Positions 3,514 through 52,014 are shown, counted from the stretch's first letter. The stretch is DNA of 64,000 nucleotides from Prosthecobacter debontii (GCA_945905735.1 CAMDQC010000006.1:1-64000), one strand, 5' to 3'. Notes: generated from the sequence alone by a model not told the origin. Made by a program: numbers and translations.

Positions 3514-3779
3514 CCAGCGCCGAAGGCGCGCAATGTAAAAGCCCAGGCAGAGCGAGCTTGCCGCGTGAGGGCTGTAAGGCCCTTTTGCGCGGGAACGAGC
3601 GCAGGCCTGGGTTTGCGGCCACACACGAACCATGAGCCCTGTAAGGGCGGCATCCTTCGCGTGACTCACGGTTTGATGCCGCCCCTTCAGGGCTCATCGC
3701 ATTTCTTCGACGTGACCCAGGGATGCGCTCCTTCGTCGCTGCCCCTGGGCTTTTACATTACCGGGCCTTCGGCCCTCCA
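3514..3779. repeat. Palindromic REP/BIME-like element, copy A
   Basis: About 266 bp beginning CCAGCGCCGAAGGCGCGC and ending with CCGGGCCTTCGGCCCTCC. It repeats, with few differences, 279 bp downstream as copy B. Compared with the element at 2796-3003 it has an extra internal hairpin (GGGCTGTAAGGCCC) in its left half. The outer hairpins and the AGCCCTGTAAGGGCGG central hairpin are shared by all three elements. Confidence 0.85.
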
Positions 3780-3792
3780 CTTCGCCGCGATT

Positions 3793-4057
3793 CCAGCGCC
3801 GAAGGTGCGCAATGTAATAGCCCAGGCAAAGCGAGCTTGCCGCGTGAGGGCTGTAAGGCCCTTTTGCGCGGGAACGAGCGCAGGCCTGGGTTTGCGGCCA
3901 CACACGAACCATGAGCCCTGTAGGGGCGGCATCGTTCGCGTGGCTCGCGGTTTTATTCCGCCCCTACATGGCTCATCCCATTTTTCCGACATGACCCAGG
4001 GATGCGCTCCTTCGTCGCTGCCCCTGGGCTTTTACATTGCCGGGCCTTCGGCCCTCA
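3793..4057. repeat. Palindromic REP/BIME-like element, copy B
   Basis: A second tandem copy of the 3514-3779 element at a period of 279 bp. Compensatory-looking changes keep the central hairpin paired (TGTAGGGGCGG against CCGCCCCTACA). That suggests the folded structure, not the primary sequence, is what is kept. It ends immediately before the start of the broken glycosyltransferase gene. Confidence 0.85.
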
Positions 4058-43934: not shown

Positions 43935-43963
43935 GGCAGCGGTGTTCGTTCTTTTTATATAAT
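43934..43963 (+). promoter_or_regulatory. Predicted promoter of the tRNA array
   Basis: A perfect TATAAT at 43958-43963, unusual in this GC-rich region, with a weak -35 (TGGCAG at 43934-43939) 18 bases upstream. It is about 180 bp before the first tRNA and just before the first long hairpin. Confidence 0.5.
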
Positions 43964-44054
43964 GAACCGCAAAGGACGTGAGGGGCGCGGAGGTGAGGTC
44001 GGCAAGACAAGTGAGGTTGGTTGCTCCGAGCTCTTCACGCCCTTTGCGGTTCAT
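43962..44054. repeat. Long hairpin upstream of the tRNA array
   Basis: 20-nt arms at 43962-43981 and 44035-44054 (ATGAACCGCAAAGGACGTGA and its inverse) differ at one base. The enclosed 53 nt show no gene. Confidence 0.75.
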
Positions 44055-44069
44055 CAATTTCCTTATCAG

Positions 44070-44134
44070 CCACGCAGGACGCGAGTGGGTTCCGGGAGTT
44101 TTCAGCAGTGCCCGGTCATTCGCGGCCTGCGTGG
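44070..44134. repeat. Rod-like hairpin before tRNA-Trp
   Basis: Stacked stems CCACGCAGG/CCTGCGTGG, CGCGAGTG/CATTCGCG and CCGGG/CCCGG with a 14-nt loop. It ends GGCCA like the tRNA ends nearby but has no anticodon arm. Confidence 0.7.
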
Positions 44135-44146
44135 CCAGATTTACAT

Positions 44147-44220
44147 ACGGCGTGCGCCAGCTTGCGCAGTCAGGTCTCCAAAACCAGATCCGCCCGGAGC
44201 ATCACCGGGACGCCGTGCCA
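44147..44220 (+). tRNA. tRNA-Trp (CCA), non-canonical
   Basis: A 74-nt cloverleaf with CCA encoded. Acceptor ACGGCGT/ACGCCGT, anticodon loop CTCCAAA. The D loop is only CAGCTT (no GG) and the T loop is AGCATCA instead of TTCRANY. One A-A mismatch in the anticodon stem. Confidence 0.8.
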
Positions 44221-44260
44221 GTTTTCTTTTCCGACGAGTGTCGGAGTTTTGTGAGGGGAA

Positions 44261-44308
44261 CGCAGAGGGAGGGTGCGTGGTTGTTGGAATCGCACGCCTC
44301 CCTCTGCG
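44261..44308. repeat. Hairpin between tRNA-Trp and tRNA-Met
   Basis: 17-bp stem with one bulge (CGCAGAGGGAGG then GTGCG, with its inverse) and a 13-nt loop. Confidence 0.75.
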
Positions 44309-44323
44309 GAACCTCATTCATTT

Positions 44324-44399
44324 TGCAGGGTCGCCAAGAGGAAAGGCAACGGCCTCATAAGCCGTCCACGCGCGGGTTCGATCCCCGCCCCTGCGACCA
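44324..44399 (+). tRNA. tRNA-Met/CAT
   Basis: 76 nt, CCA encoded, anticodon loop CTCATAA (CAT). This is the only array member with a near-standard T loop (TTCGATC) and a GG-containing D loop (AAGAGGAAA). The anticodon stem lacks the three G-C pairs of an initiator, so elongator Met or Ile(CAT) is possible. Confidence 0.9.
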
Positions 44400-44406
44400 A
44401 TTTTCA

Positions 44407-44465
44407 TTTGGCCCGCGAAAAGCGCGAAATTCTTTCGTGCTTTTTCGCGTATTTCGCGGGCCAAA
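44407..44465. repeat. Hairpin between tRNA-Met and tRNA-Tyr
   Basis: 23-nt arms at 44407-44429 and 44443-44465 (TTTGGCCCGCGAAA...) with two mismatches and a 13-nt loop. Confidence 0.8.
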
Positions 44466-44468
44466 ATT

Positions 44469-44553
44469 GCGGCGGTAGATCGCTAAAGACGCGAACCGAG
44501 CTGTAACCTCGGCGCACCTCGCCGGTCGGGAGCATTACCCGGACGCCGCACCA
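44469..44553 (+). tRNA. tRNA-Tyr (GTA), non-canonical
   Basis: 85 nt with encoded CCA. Anticodon loop CTGTAAC on stem CCGAG/CTCGG; the 13-nt variable region fits class II tRNA-Tyr. D arm TCGC-TAAAGAC-GCGA lacks GG; the T loop is AGCATTA. Confidence 0.82.
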
Positions 44554-44567
44554 TTTAATTTCATCAT

Positions 44568-44660
44568 CGAATCCACAGCCGACACGAGGGGCTCGGAGGA
44601 GCGGCCTGAATACGGAGTGAACGTGGGGGCTTCGGGCTCTTCTTGTCGTCTGTGGGTTCG
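44568..44660. repeat. Long imperfect hairpin between tRNA-Tyr and tRNA-Pro
   Basis: Arms of about 28 nt (CGAATCCACAGCCGACACGA... and its inverse ending CTGTGGGTTCG) with scattered mismatches, enclosing about 36 nt. Confidence 0.7.
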
Positions 44661-44668
44661 ATGGAAAA

Positions 44669-44744
44669 CGCGTGCGAGGGAGACAGCGAACCCACCTGAT
44701 TTGGGATCAGGGGATACCCGGGGCAGCACCGGGGCGCGCGACCA
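44669..44744 (+). tRNA. tRNA-Pro (TGG), non-canonical
   Basis: 76 nt, CCA encoded. Anticodon loop TTTGGGA on a perfect CCTGA/TCAGG stem; acceptor CGCGTGC/GCGCGCG. D loop AGACAGCGAA without GG; T loop GGCAGCA. Confidence 0.85.
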
Positions 44745-44753
44745 ATTTCAAAA

Positions 44754-44828
44754 GCGTCTGTGGCCGAACATCCAGGCATCGATCTTCCAAATCGAATCAC
44801 GCGGGGGAGGCACCCGCCGGACGCTCCA
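44754..44828 (+). tRNA. tRNA-Gly (TCC), non-canonical
   Basis: 75 nt, CCA encoded. Anticodon loop CTTCCAA on TCGAT/ATCGA; acceptor GCGTCTG/CGGACGC. D loop GAACATCCA; T loop GGAGGCA on a perfect GCGGG/CCCGC stem. Confidence 0.85.
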
Positions 44829-44832
44829 TTTT

Positions 44833-44907
44833 ACCAGTGTGGGATAACAGTAGTCCGCGGCCCTGTTAAGGCTTGAAGTCTTGGTGCGATGCCAAGCGCT
44901 GGTGCCA
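44833..44907 (+). tRNA. tRNA-Asn (GTT), non-canonical
   Basis: 75 nt, CCA encoded. Anticodon loop CTGTTAA; acceptor ACCAGTG/CGCTGGT. D loop TAACAGTAG without GG; T arm CTTGG-TGCGATG-CCAAG. Confidence 0.85.
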
Positions 44908-44912
44908 CTTTC

Positions 44913-44986
44913 CCTTGAGTAGCTCAAAAGCAGAGCACGCGGCCGATAACCGCGAGACCGTGGAGCGTTACCACGCCCAAGGACCA
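44913..44986 (+). tRNA. tRNA-Ile (GAT) with C33, non-canonical
   Basis: 74 nt, CCA encoded. Anticodon loop CCGATAA on CGCGG/CCGCG: position 33, almost always T, is C. Acceptor CCTTGAG/CCCAAGG has one A-C mismatch. D loop AAAAGCA; T loop AGCGTTA. Confidence 0.8.
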
Positions 44987-44990
44987 CTTT

Positions 44991-45066
44991 CGCTGGATGG
45001 CAGAGTCAGTCAATGCACCCGTCTGAAAAGCGGGCGATCTCGGTGCGATCCCGGGTCCAGCGGCCA
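44991..45066 (+). tRNA. tRNA-Phe (GAA), non-canonical
   Basis: 76 nt, CCA encoded. Perfect acceptor CGCTGGA/TCCAGCG; anticodon loop CTGAAAA. D loop GAGTCAGTCAA without adjacent GG; T loop TGCGATC. Confidence 0.87.
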
Positions 45067-45071
45067 GATGA

Positions 45072-45121
45072 GGTCGGAGAAAGTAGGGGGCGCGGCACAC
45101 CGGCCGCGCGCCCCTCCGACC
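45072..45121. repeat. Hairpin between tRNA-Phe and tRNA-His
   Basis: Nested stems GGTCGGAG/CTCCGACC and a GC-rich inner stem (GGGGCGCGG with CCGCGCGCCCC), separated by AAAGTA. Confidence 0.75.
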
Positions 45122-45136
45122 GGGCAATTTTCAAAT

Positions 45137-45213
45137 GGAGGCCATAATGTAAGAGTGAGCATACGGAACTGTGAATTCCGTTGTGTCGGGTGCGAATCCC
45201 ACTGGCCTCCCCA
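45137..45213 (+). tRNA. tRNA-His (GTG), non-canonical
   Basis: 77 nt including the extra G-1, which faces discriminator C73, the identity feature of tRNA-His. Acceptor GAGGCCA/TGGCCTC; anticodon loop CTGTGAA on CGGAA/TTCCG. D loop TAAGAGTGAG; T loop TGCGAAT on an imperfect stem. Confidence 0.85.
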
Positions 45214-45225
45214 TTTTCCGAAAAC

Positions 45226-45302
45226 GTGAGCCATGCCAAAGTCGTGGAGGCGGCGGGCTGCAACCCCGCTCTTACCCGGTGCGACTCCGGGGGCTCACTC
45301 CA
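45226..45302 (+). tRNA. tRNA-Cys (GCA), non-canonical
   Basis: 77 nt, CCA encoded. Perfect acceptor GTGAGCC/GGCTCAC; anticodon loop CTGCAAC on GCGGG/CCCGC; T arm CCCGG-TGCGACT-CCGGG. The D loop AAAGTCGTGGA keeps a GG. Confidence 0.88.
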
Positions 45303-45336
45303 CTTTTTAATGAAACAAGTTGCCGCTCGACCCGCG

Positions 45337-45370
45337 CGGGCAAACAGTCTTCAAATCACCAGTTGTCCCG
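45337..45370. repeat. Hairpin between tRNA-Cys and tRNA-Arg
   Basis: CGGGCAA pairs with TTGTCCCG (one bulge) around a 19-nt loop that contains CTTCAAA. It is not a full cloverleaf. Confidence 0.5.
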
Positions 45371-45381
45371 ATTTTCAAAAT

Positions 45382-45458
45382 GCTCGCGTAGCTCAATTGT
45401 ATAGAGTTCTGCGCTTCGAACGCAGCGGTTGCAGGTTAGAGTCCTGCCGCGAGCACCA
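45382..45458 (+). tRNA. tRNA-Arg (TCG)
   Basis: 77 nt, CCA encoded. Perfect acceptor GCTCGCG/CGCGAGC, four-pair D stem (GCTC/GAGT), anticodon loop CTTCGAA on CTGCG/CGCAG. The T loop TTAGAGT keeps TT but has A at position 56. Confidence 0.9.
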
Positions 45459-45462
45459 TTTC

Positions 45463-45537
45463 CCCGACGTAGCCCAATGCAGAGGCATCCGCCTCAGAAG
45501 CGGAAAAGTGTGGGTGCGATTCCTACCGTCGGGACCA
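45463..45537 (+). tRNA. tRNA-Leu (CAG) with short variable loop
   Basis: 75 nt, CCA encoded. Perfect acceptor CCCGACG/CGTCGGG; anticodon loop CTCAGAA on TCCGC/GCGGA. The variable loop is only AAAGT, although bacterial tRNA-Leu is normally class II with a long arm. D loop CAATGCAGA; T loop TGCGATT. Confidence 0.83.
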
Positions 45538-45547
45538 ATTCAAGAAC

Positions 45548-45638
45548 GGAACGTGAACCGGACCAGCGAGCCGGGAGTCTTTGCTAAAGACATCGTGCGC
45601 CCAAAGCGCAAGGGGAGCATGCCCTCCGCGTTCCGCCA
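45548..45638 (+). tRNA. tRNA-Ser (GCT), class II, non-canonical
   Basis: 91 nt, CCA encoded. Anticodon loop TTGCTAA; a real long variable arm (TGCGC-CCAAA-GCGCA). Acceptor GGAACGT/GCGTTCC. D arm CCGG-ACCAGCGAG-CCGG; T loop AGCATGC. Confidence 0.83.
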
Positions 45639-45648
45639 TTTTTCAAGT

Positions 45649-45725
45649 GTCTGCGAATGCAAAGCGGTCGAGCGCCACGCCTTTCAAGCGTGTCCTAGCC
45701 GGTGCGAGTCCGGCCGCAGATGCCA
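45649..45725 (+). tRNA. tRNA-Glu (TTC), non-canonical
   Basis: 77 nt, CCA encoded. Acceptor GTCTGCG/CGCAGAT; anticodon loop CTTTCAA on CACGC/GCGTG; T arm GCCGG-TGCGAGT-CCGGC. The D loop AAAGCGGTCGA has GG. Confidence 0.87.
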
Positions 45726-45730
45726 CAAAT

Positions 45731-45806
45731 AGCCGCGTAGCCCAACAGAAGAGGCACGGCGTTGAGAACGCCGCCAGTGAAGGTGCAACTCCTTTCGCGA
45801 CTGCCA
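45731..45806 (+). tRNA. tRNA-Leu (GAG) with short variable loop
   Basis: 76 nt, CCA encoded. Anticodon loop TTGAGAA on CGGCG/CGCCG; acceptor AGCCGCG/CGCGACT with one mismatch. The variable loop is CCAGT (class I). D loop CAACAGAAGA; T loop TGCAACT. Confidence 0.82.
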
Positions 45807-47540: not shown

Positions 47541-47721
47541 GTGTGCCCCGGCGAGGGCGAGATTCTCGTGGAAACTAGTTGTCAAAAACCACACGAAACT
47601 ACATATTTAAGCGTCGGTTCTACTCGATTCCCGAACCTTGCTCTTATGCAGGGGTCTGGTGACTTCTGGGCTGAGGTGCTTTGCATTTCAGTTCGGGATT
47701 CGGGTAGAGCCGACATTTTTT

Positions 47722-48816
47722 ATGCCACATAATTCGTTCGCCGCGACGGACCTTCGTTACAAAGGTTTTATACGTTCCCATGAATGGTCTGTTTGTGTTG
47801 GTGCGGGAATTTCGGCTGGGATTATGCCGACTTGGTTTGATTTCACTCGGGCTGTCTTTAATCGAGCGACATCGCAAATTTTATCCGACGCCTCGTTTCG
47901 GAATCTGGCAACCAGCATGGGGTGGGGATTAGACGCTTGGCTACAGGCGGGGTTAAATTCGATGGTCGTCCAAGGTCATACTCGGGACGATTTTTTCGCG
48001 TTTATTGAGGATGAACTGTATCGGGATATACTCGAAAAAGCTGACAATTCCTCACTTAAAGCAATTTTGCTCATTGGGCTGTCGAACCCGAAGCGAAACA
48101 AGCCTGCTGATTCTCTAAAGTTGCTCGAATTTTTCAGAAAGGAGTTTTCAGATTCCACTCTGTTAGCATTGGCCAAGTGGCTTCGGAGAGCAAAACGATG
48201 CGGAAATCCGCTTCAGGCCGTTTTGACGTTCAATGCTGATGGATTACTTGATCTCATAATAACCCTGCTGGCTCTGGAAGAACAAATCCATACCAACGCT
48301 GGCAGAGGGTATCCAATAGACGAATTTAGAAGGGTTTTGAGAGCTTCAGATGATTGTCGGCACTCCACGCCGATTTTCCATTTGCACGGGTGTGTTGTGC
48401 CAAGGTGTGGAAATTCTCAGCGGGGGCGCGAGTCTCGGGAGGGATTGGTTTTTCCAGAAAGCGGGTACAGTCGGATTTCCTCAACGGTGCATACTTGGCA
48501 GCAGACCGTATTTCTGAGCCATGCTCAGTCGCAACGGCTTGTTTTCATCGGACTTTCAATGTCCGACCTAAATCTCCGGCGATGGTTGGCATGGTGTACG
48601 GCAAACGCCGTTCAAGAGCACCAGCATCGTTCACAAGAATTCCGAGGAGAATTCATTTTGGGCGAAAACCTATGGCTGACGATTCGCCCGAAAGAAAAGG
48701 AGCATGAAATCGCGCTCGAATCCTCACTTTTACATTTGGGCGTAAGGATTGCATGGCTGGAATCTTGGGCTGAATTGCCGACCGCACTCGATAACCTTTT
48801 GGGAGTTGGGGCTTAA
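47722..48816 (+). CDS. SIR2-like domain protein, probable defence NADase
   Basis: A 364-residue protein. I start it at the ATG at 47722, just before the conserved region; the frame opens at 47638. SIR2 signatures: VCVGAGISAG (27-31), VLTFNADGLLD (Asn171, Asp173), FHLHG (His222) and LVFIGLSMSDLNLRRW. Stand-alone SIR2 proteins act in anti-phage defence by cleaving NAD; this role is inferred. Its GC is clearly lower than its neighbours, a sign of transfer, and it lies between two copies of a duplicated sequence. Confidence 0.82.
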   Translation: MPHNSFAATDLRYKGFIRSHEWSVCVGAGISAGIMPTWFDFTRAVFNRATSQILSDASFRNLATSMGWGLDAWLQAGLNSMVVQGHTRDDFFAFIEDELYRDILEKADNSSLKAILLIGLSNPKRNKPADSLKLLEFFRKEFSDSTLLALAKWLRRAKRCGNPLQAVLTFNADGLLDLIITLLALEEQIHTNAGRGYPIDEFRRVLRASDDCRHSTPIFHLHGCVVPRCGNSQRGRESREGLVFPESGYSRISSTVHTWQQTVFLSHAQSQRLVFIGLSMSDLNLRRWLAWCTANAVQEHQHRSQEFRGEFILGENLWLTIRPKEKEHEIALESSLLHLGVRIAWLESWAELPTALDNLLGVGA

Positions 48817-49963: not shown

Positions 49964-50545
49964 ATGCAAGATTTTCTTCAACTCCCCGTCGTCCTCGTGC
50001 TCAACCGCGCGTGGCAGGCGATCCATGTGAAGACGCCTGCGGAGGCGTTTTGTATGATGGCGAGCGGGGCGGCTTCGGGGCTGGATATTGGGGCGGATGG
50101 GGCGATGACTCCGGTGCTGTGGGCGGATTGGCTGGCTCTGACGGTGCGCGAGCAGGACCGGGCGGTGCGGACGGTGCGCGGGGAGTTGCGGGTGCCGACG
50201 GTTGTGGTGGCTGCGAATTATGCGCGCGTGCCGATGCGGCGGCGGGCGTTTTCCGGGCGGGCGCTGTGGGAGCGGGATGGCGGCGTGTGCCAATATACGG
50301 GGCAGCGGCTGAAGGTGGGCGAGGGGAACATTGACCACGTCGTGCCGCGCTCGCGGGGCGGGCGGACGGATTGGGAGAACTGTGTGCTGGCGCACCGCGA
50401 GGTGAATAGCCGGAAGGCGAACAAGACGCCTGCGGAGGCTGGGCTGACGTTGCTGCGCAAGCCTGCGGTGCCGAAGACGCTGCCTGCGACGGTGCTCATT
50501 CGGAATACGCACGGGGTGCGAGACTGGGAGCATTTCTTGGTGTGA
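49964..50545 (+). CDS. HNH endonuclease domain protein
   Basis: A 193-residue protein from the ATG at 49964 (MQDFLQLPVVLVLNRAWQAI). The HNH core is clear: CQYTGQRL, NIDHVVPRSRGG, WENCVLAHREVNSRKANKTP. It is a possible DNA nuclease of the single-domain type common in Planctomycetota and Verrucomicrobiota. Whether it acts in defence or housekeeping is unknown. No mobile element is adjacent. Confidence 0.82.
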   Translation: MQDFLQLPVVLVLNRAWQAIHVKTPAEAFCMMASGAASGLDIGADGAMTPVLWADWLALTVREQDRAVRTVRGELRVPTVVVAANYARVPMRRRAFSGRALWERDGGVCQYTGQRLKVGEGNIDHVVPRSRGGRTDWENCVLAHREVNSRKANKTPAEAGLTLLRKPAVPKTLPATVLIRNTHGVRDWEHFLV

Positions 50546-50610: not shown

Positions 50611-52014
50611 ATGAACACAAAACAACTGATCGAATTGGGTGTGCCGGAGACGGCGCTGGCGGAGGCGGGCGCGTTCATCGTGGCGCTGCGGGAGAGTGGC
50701 GGGGCGATGGCTCGGCTGCCGGAGGAGATGGCGGCGATTGTCGCGGAGCCGGAGCGTTTTCTGGGCGACCCGCTGCGGGCGACTTTGGCGCGGGCGCTTT
50801 ATGAGCCTGCGTTTAAAATGCGCGAGGTTCCTGCGCCGTGGCGTCAATGGGGCGAGGGGCTGGATGCGCCTGCGGTGGCGCAGCTCGCGAATGCTTGCAC
50901 GCTGCCGATCTCGGTGGCGGGTGCGCTGATGCCCGATGCGCATGTGGGCTACGGCTTGCCCATCGGCGGCGTGCTGGCGACGGAGGGCGCGGTGATTCCT
51001 TACGCCGTCGGGGTGGACATCGCTTGCCGGATGAAGCTGACCGTTTTTGAGCGGAAGGCGAGCACGCTGGCGGGGATGCGCGACCGGCTGGCAAACATCA
51101 TCGAAAGCGAGACGCGCTTCGGCATGGGCGCGGAGTTTCAGGCGCGGCGGGACCATGATGTGATGGACGACGACTGGAGCGTCTCGCCGATCACCAAGCA
51201 CCTCCGCGAGAAAGCTTGGAAGCAGCTCGGCACTTCGGGGACGGGGAATCATTTTGTGGAGTTCGGCGAGTTCACGGTGAACACGGCGGAGTCGCTTCGG
51301 TTTGCGGAAGACGGGCGCGAGATTCCTCCTGGCGCGTATCTCGCGCTGCTGTCGCACAGCGGTTCGCGCGGGACTGGCGCGCAGGTGTGCCAGCACTACA
51401 GCCGCATCGCGATGGACCGTCACGCGAAGTTGCCCGCGCAACTCAAGCATTTGGCGTGGCTCGATCTCACGAGCGAGCCGGGCGCGGAGTATTGGGCGGC
51501 GATGGAGCTGATGGGCCGCTACGCCGCTGCGAACCACGCGTGCATCCATCGTCACATCACGAAAAAGGTGGGCGCGGCGGTGCTGCTGGATATTGAAAAC
51601 CACCACAACTTCGCGTGGAAAGAGCAGCACTTTGGGCGTGAAGTGATCGTCCACCGCAAAGGCGCGACGCCCGCCGGAGCTGGCGTCATGGGCGTCATCC
51701 CCGGCTCGATGGCGACGCCCGGTTTCGTCGTGCGAGGACGCGGAAACGCGGAGTCGCTCAACAGCGCATCGCACGGCGCAGGCCGCGTGATGAGCCGGAC
51801 GAAAGCGATGCAGTCGTTCACCTGGAGCGGCGTGAGGAAACAGCTCGCCGCTGCTGGCGTGGAACTGCTGAGCGCGGGGCTGGATGAAAATCCCGGCGTC
51901 TATAAAGACATCCACACCGTCATGGCCGCACAGACGGACCTCGTGGATGTGATGGGCGCGTTCATGCCGAAGCTCGTGAAGATGGCTCCAGCGGGGGAGA
52001 AGGCGGAGGATTAG
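50611..52014 (+). CDS. rtcB: RtcB-type RNA ligase
   Basis: A 467-residue protein starting at the ATG at 50611. RtcB motifs: MPDAHVGYGLPIGGV, VGVDIACRM (metal Cys), GTSGTGNHFVEFG, LLSHSGSRGTG, ENHHNFAWKE and NSASHGAGRVMSR with the guanylated His. It joins RNA 2',3'-cyclic phosphate to 5'-OH ends. No archease gene is nearby. Confidence 0.94.
   Translation: MNTKQLIELGVPETALAEAGAFIVALRESGGAMARLPEEMAAIVAEPERFLGDPLRATLARALYEPAFKMREVPAPWRQWGEGLDAPAVAQLANACTLPISVAGALMPDAHVGYGLPIGGVLATEGAVIPYAVGVDIACRMKLTVFERKASTLAGMRDRLANIIESETRFGMGAEFQARRDHDVMDDDWSVSPITKHLREKAWKQLGTSGTGNHFVEFGEFTVNTAESLRFAEDGREIPPGAYLALLSHSGSRGTGAQVCQHYSRIAMDRHAKLPAQLKHLAWLDLTSEPGAEYWAAMELMGRYAAANHACIHRHITKKVGAAVLLDIENHHNFAWKEQHFGREVIVHRKGATPAGAGVMGVIPGSMATPGFVVRGRGNAESLNSASHGAGRVMSRTKAMQSFTWSGVRKQLAAAGVELLSAGLDENPGVYKDIHTVMAAQTDLVDVMGAFMPKLVKMAPAGEKAED

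Follow-up and report, generated by a model that had tools for sequence, protein, structure and literature searches.

A 64,000-nucleotide stretch of Prosthecobacter debontii DNA (GCA_945905735.1 CAMDQC010000006.1:1-64000; hereafter the window), which is part of contig C6 of a 5.19 Mb draft genome, carries an array of 15 tRNA genes in which the canonical contact between D loop and T loop (that is, the G18-psi55 contact of the tRNA elbow, psi55 being pseudouridine 55) is in most members exchanged for A18.G55, with the outer 19-56 pair retained. The genes, all on the + strand and with encoded CCA, are packed into 1.66 kb (44147-45806), and arrays of this kind recur in related genomes together with genes for an HNH endonuclease and an RtcB-type RNA ligase. 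Judging from sequence, we consider it probable that the array serves as a reserve of translation tRNAs, which use an alternative elbow and are kept for translation stress or tRNA damage. Although such arrays are known as a kind, we came across no description of the swapped elbow in the literature that could be searched: the reviews consulted on the tRNA elbow and the T loop mention neither A18 nor G55, and a literature search on A18 together with G55 returned nothing relevant. Similar pairs may reportedly have been encountered when suppressor tRNAs with randomised D and T loops were put under selection.

Exchange of the 18-55 contact at the tRNA elbow

Work on tRNA takes G18, U55 and the U54-A58 pair to be almost invariant, and gene finders depend on them. 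Covariation was measured in 2,585 distinct array tRNAs from IMG/VR and GTDB loci, reduced by 75% clustering to n=424; as the loci were collected by a G55 T-arm pattern, the proportion of G55 tRNAs among them is no census, whereas the pairing of nucleotide 18 is free of that selection. Nucleotides 18 and 19 are readable unambiguously only in tRNAs with an 18-nucleotide 8-26 segment, and among these G18 accompanies T55 in 98 of 100 and A18 accompanies G55 in 158 of 158, nucleotide 19 being G in both. Counted over independent genome loci, the 18-55 combination is A-G in 179 cases, G-T in 31 and something else in 6. The top covarying pairs between D loop and T loop are 18-55 (0.747 bits) and 19-56 (0.269), neither of which was matched in any of 1,000 within-isotype shuffles; the two strongest covariations are thus exactly the two known elbow contacts. 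Besides G-C, the 19-56 pair occurs as A-U (9) and U-A (9). Both elbow types are present in the 18 amino-acid isotypes measurable in register (Leu and Tyr are not measurable), and near-identical tRNAs switch in concert, as in the tRNA-Asp of two Oscillochloris bins (GCGGAAG/GTCGGCA versus GCAGCAG/GGCAGCA).

On these counts the elbow contact has been exchanged, not lost, and simple loss of the contacts was dropped as an explanation. The first-pass annotation of the window, made from sequence alone, had taken both sides of the elbow contact to be lost together, which the covariation contradicts; its remark that most of the genes lack G18G19 holds for the GG motif, but G19, or its pairing with nucleotide 56, persists. 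The T-loop classes that it named (TGCGANN, AGCATNA and GGCAGCA) are correct. Within the T loop, positions 54-58 (0.931) and 54-60 also covary, in the combinations T-A-Y, A-T-A, G-G-A and C-A. In pooled loci (L085-L195 and L196-L309), positions 54, 58 and 60 were observed to switch as a module, largely independently of the 18-55 switch.

In the window itself, the canonical G18-psi55 contact is absent from most members, which have A18.G55 instead, whereas the 19-56 Watson-Crick contact is present as G-C and, in Arg and Gly, as U-A. Read by eye, A18 G19 stands with G55 C56 in tRNA-Pro(TGG) (44669-44744; T loop GGCAGCA), tRNA-Asn(GTT) (44833-44907; TGCGATG), tRNA-Ile(GAT) (44913-44986; AGCGTTA), tRNA-Phe(GAA) (44991-45066; TGCGATC), tRNA-His(GTG) (45137-45213; TGCGAAT) and tRNA-Leu(GAG) (45731-45806; TGCAACT). 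The register, likewise read by eye, is less certain in tRNA-Cys(GCA) (45226-45302; TGCGACT, with U73 and probably C18 G19), tRNA-Leu(CAG) (45463-45537; TGCGATT), tRNA-Tyr(GTA) (44469-44553; AGCATTA, with a long variable arm), tRNA-Ser(GCT) (45548-45638; AGCATGC, also long-armed) and tRNA-Trp(CCA) (44147-44220; AGCATCA, with a short, remodelled D arm that has AGC in its loop). The U19-A56 variant is found in tRNA-Gly(TCC) (44754-44828; A18 U19 with GGAGGCA, that is, A18.G55, register by eye) and in tRNA-Arg(TCG) (45382-45458; G18 U19 with TTAGAGT, that is, G18-U55). The sole canonical elbow of the array belongs to tRNA-Met(CAT) (44324-44399; GG with TTCGATC), and tRNA-Glu(TTC) (45649-45725; TGCGAGT) is exceptional in keeping GG with G55.

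Gene content, redundancy and integrity of the array

ARAGORN detects 8 of the 15 genes and Rfam RF00005 an overlapping set of 8, so that each overlooks about half of the array. A relaxed cloverleaf scan in which CCA was required gave 14 + strand tRNAs, every one of them within 44147-45806, and at the same threshold none in the rest of the window on either strand. The fifteenth gene is the tRNA-His, which scores 45 bits with Rfam, has G-1 opposite C73 and contains two mismatches in its T stem. Together these searches bear out both the 15-gene array and the isotype list of the first-pass annotation (Trp, Met, Tyr, Pro, Gly, Asn, Ile, Phe, His, Cys, Arg, Leu twice, Ser and Glu). Elsewhere, the host genome has 40 further tRNA genes, all with canonical T55C56 T loops, which makes the array set redundant; this full canonical set and the recurrence of the same aberrant set with HNH and RtcB in related genomes support the earlier proposal of a specialised second tRNA set.

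The array tRNAs retain their identity elements. Across 1,661 G55C56 tRNAs, G3.U70 is present in 56 of 59 tRNA-Ala versus 13 of 1602 others, and nucleotide 73 is U in 69 of 71 Cys, G in 64 of 65 Asp, 71 of 72 Asn and 54 of 55 Trp, and A in 136 of 139 Leu and 45 of 45 Tyr; CCA is encoded in 86%. With their identity elements intact, these look like chargeable translation tRNAs rather than pseudogenes. Because the scanner demands paired stems, stem pairing alone is no independent evidence, whereas comparison of orthologues is. Between the window array and its 92% identical counterpart in G009, a genome of the same genus, we count 6 double compensatory and 9 one-sided pair-preserving changes, together with 9 pair-breaking changes (5 of them in Ser) and 3 pair-restoring ones. 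The random breakage of stems and identity elements expected of pseudogenes is thus not what was found.

Both tRNA-Leu of the window have short variable arms, whereas the host Leu genes are class II. Among G55 tRNA-Leu at genome loci, 66 are short-armed and 13 long-armed, and short-arm tRNA-Leu also occur in the Nostoc, M. alvei and Myxococcus phage Mx1 sets. In HNH-linked arrays (L075, L076, L066, L061 and the window), tRNA-Leu were often seen to be class I (that is, with a short variable arm). The class I arms could reflect an old array lineage or altered recognition by leucyl-tRNA synthetase.

The array tRNA-Trp have an odd D arm (window 44147-44220; also L061 and L066), in which a GCNC/GNGC stem follows straight after the acceptor stem and closes a loop of 5-6 nucleotides, CAGC(A)T; this stem covaries between genomes. 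Two long imperfect hairpins (43962-44135, no strand assigned) lie 5' of the array, and further hairpins lie between tRNA genes, within 44221-44323, 44407-44465, 44554-44668 and 45067-45137. All six are long, stable and imperfect (about -37 to -59 kcal/mol for the segments as folded). The Met-Tyr spacer, which bears a hairpin in the window, measures only 8 nucleotides in G009. A dispersed repeat family as the source of the intergenic hairpins was unsupported for the one tested, which is single-copy in the genome. Elsewhere in the window, several similar inverted repeats with ATGAGCCCTGTAAGGGCGG-like arms at 3632-3976, and also at 2867-2948, look like a dispersed palindromic repeat.

Linkage to HNH and RtcB genes and comparison with known arrays

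About 4.2 kb downstream of the array, on the + strand, lies a gene for an HNH endonuclease of the tRNA-array type with a Cas9-like HNH domain (49964-50545), and directly downstream of it, on the same strand, one for an RtcB-type RNA ligase (50611-52014). A SIR2-like open reading frame (ORF; 47638-48816) and small ORFs lie between the array and this pair. The flanks are ordinary chromosomal genes, with an M20 peptidase on one side and a PQQ/BamB-like gene and a glycosyltransferase on the other.

RtcB orthologues were found in 18 of 57 relatives, and the same aberrant arrays stand near RtcB in G002 and G009 (same genus), G053 (26 tRNAs) and G051 (19), as well as in G049, where the array is interrupted by the contig end. 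In an order-wide survey of 213 genomes, with arrays called by a tandem T-arm pattern, 12 genomes have arrays, and this RtcB is present in 9 of those 12 versus 19 of the 201 others (Fisher p = 6e-7). An array-type HNH gene (45% identity or more, as opposed to 35-41% for a near-universal chromosomal paralogue) is on the array contig in G000, G002, G009, G049, G051, G053, G083 and G084, and in G051 it begins about 50 bp past the last tRNA. Array, RtcB and HNH are associated both by physical linkage and by co-occurrence between genomes. In G009, array, HNH and RtcB are all on contig C283, whereas the window's two neighbour genes are on C25 and C182, which suggests, within the limits set by contig breaks, that the parts of the module remain linked even as the neighbouring DNA differs. 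Almost every genome of the order also has, outside arrays, a second HNH paralogue (about 40% identical; for example, G000:C50:8627-9175).

The tandem pattern also matched at least 114 stretches of GTDB contigs. Among the matches listed, 54 of 80 titled rows are Verrucomicrobiota (manual count), and the others include Myxococcales and other Deltaproteobacteria, Chloroflexi, Patescibacteria, Acidobacteria, Actinomycetota, further groups and three Staphylococcus; a few of those listed have no recognisable tRNA. In the slices of up to 8 kb around the listed matches, HNH is found in 38 and RtcB, close or distant, in 31 (manual count). Genomes labelled with strain names are among the matches (Geminisphaera colitermitum TAV2, Verrucomicrobium sp. 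BvORR034 and Opitutaceae bacterium EW11), and direct testing of the array may thus be feasible. IMG/VR yielded 111 stretches with G55 tRNAs, some on contigs of more than 200 kb, and only 3 of these 111 viral loci have RtcB. Near the tRNAs of two viral loci (L137 12191-13915, and Myxococcus phage Mx1, L080 1870-3519) is a PHROG 850 RNA-binding or TROVE-domain protein, possibly concerned with Ro-like RNA handling. The RtcB of a Deinococcus deserti plasmid (48% identical) was considered as an array partner and set aside, there being no tRNA array nearby.

By the number and density of its tRNAs, its redundancy with the chromosome and its associated HNH gene, the locus belongs with known tRNA array units. 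The closest parallel in gene content is the 26-tRNA trn operon of Anabaena sp. PCC 7120. TrcR represses this operon, antibiotics that target translation induce it, and the TrcR regulon also includes rtcB (all3526) and an HNH nuclease gene (all8564) (PMC10272220). Both systems are large, redundant arrays with rtcB and an HNH gene; in Anabaena, however, rtcB is chromosomal and joined by regulation, whereas here HNH and RtcB are physically beside the array. A related Nostoc plasmid array has the G55 elbow in 2 of 24 tRNAs, compared with nearly all in the window array; among Verrucomicrobia-rich genome loci with at least 8 tRNAs, 48 of 70 exceed 80% G55 T loops. The large tRNA arrays known from mycobacteria (PMC5966550, PMC12803027) are similarly dense, cover nearly all amino acids, duplicate the chromosomal set and have an embedded HNH nuclease as their commonest gene, yet none of the M. 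alvei plasmid tRNAs scanned has a G55 T loop, and the two papers do not mention rtcB. Phage arrays such as that of Caulobacter phage BL57 share the many tandem tRNA genes among few proteins but have canonical T loops, the G55 class being found in other, mostly unnamed IMG/VR contigs; BL57 and two huge uncultured phage genomes were rejected as G55-type arrays on this ground. Comparison of arrays with named phages and plasmids at the DNA level gave mostly single-tRNA matches. RtcB is also linked to damaged-tRNA stress in the RNA-repair operons rtcBA/RtcR (PMC7790460); here, by contrast, neither rtcA nor rtcR was identified, and the partners are the HNH gene and the tRNA array.

A possible reserve set of tRNAs and its alternatives

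Under the reading that we favour, the array would be transcribed as a unit and then cut into tRNAs, for which, given the intact identity elements, we propose charging by host synthetases. Each tRNA would reach the normal L shape through the alternative elbow, with A18.G55 in place of G18.psi55 and the outer 19-56 pair retained. The ribosome and other factors that read the elbow use the flat outer face which this pair provides (PMC4810234), and keeping the pair would preserve the face read by RNase P and the ribosomal L1 stalk. Without U55, and in many of the tRNAs also without U54, psi55 is impossible and 5-methyluridine 54 (m5U54) is often impossible. Keeping 19-56 while swapping 18-55 would save the uses made by elbow readers yet remove psi55; the A54 and G54 T-loop classes would lose m5U54 too, and the array tRNAs may evade enzymes that read the elbow surface, tRNA-damaging ones included. 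RtcB would act as a repair ligase that reseals nuclease-cut tRNAs, and the HNH protein most likely serves the array as a nuclease for mobility or rearrangement. Failure of the normal tRNA pool, through translation inhibitors, tRNA nucleases or phage, would turn the module on.

Several observations weigh against a maintained reserve set. The HNH enzyme could be merely a homing nuclease, and 19 genomes of the order have RtcB without a detected array. The window's tRNA-His, through its T stem, the window's tRNA-Glu, through GG combined with G55, and the Ser of G009, with its five broken pairs, deviate from the rest, and some array members may thus be drifting.

A less probable account, although one with evidence of its own, is that the tRNAs are anti-defence cargo of a phage or mobile element, replacing host tRNAs cut by anticodon nucleases, and that the bacterial copy has been captured or is a defence-resisting island. 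The same G55 tRNAs in the 111 IMG/VR stretches, some of them on very long contigs, a PhoH-like gene at one of these loci, the HNH homologues in tRNA-bearing phages and plasmids, the description of M. avium arrays as putative antidefence systems (PMC12803027) and the shifts of the module between genome sites all agree with this account. However, the annotated ORFs around the window array, whose flanks are chromosomal, include none recognised as phage or conjugation genes, and linkage to RtcB, rare in the viral loci, is a bacterial feature. The mechanism itself overlaps that of a reserve set, the main difference being who benefits.

The remaining alternatives seem far more remote. It is very improbable that the tRNAs are non-translational and kept off the ribosome by their altered elbow, like the peptidoglycan-feeding tRNA-Gly of Staphylococcus; although those genes share G55 (T loop TGCAAGT, recovered by the same pattern search) and the absence of G18, they have lost G19 too (TT or CT at 18-19) and are of one isotype, whereas the array tRNAs keep nucleotide 19, combine A18 with the 19-56 pair across isotypes and cover all 20 amino acids. 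Decay into pseudogenes, with loops eroded under relaxed selection, would accord with the dispensability conferred by the host tRNAs and with the 9 of 29 changed stem pairs that are broken in the comparison with G009 (5 in one Ser gene), yet we give it hardly any credence: changes within the G55 loops are paired, not random, compensatory and pair-preserving changes are present, and the preservation of isotype identity elements and most stem pairing leaves unsupported the decay that the first-pass annotation had named as a possible refutation. Similarly slight is the prospect that the array is an orthogonal set for recoding or mischarging, for example through its class I tRNA-Leu, which are often short-armed, unlike those of the host; A73 is present in nearly all Leu, other isotypes carry their usual identity elements, and nothing among the ORFs annotated close to the array was recognised as a dedicated synthetase.

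If the array is indeed a reserve set of translation tRNAs, its linkage to RNA repair would have a testable reason, namely that these tRNAs are built to outlast conditions that destroy ordinary ones. The two switched modules (18-55 and 54-58-60), distributed across isotypes and hosts, constitute a natural experiment on the elbow and on the purpose of psi55 and m5U54. On balance, we lean towards the view that nature has two solutions to the elbow, and that Verrucomicrobiota and viral contigs carry a parallel repertoire for all amino acids, based on A18.G55, that would do without T-loop pseudouridine and evade its readers while staying compatible with the ribosome, RNase P and the synthetases.

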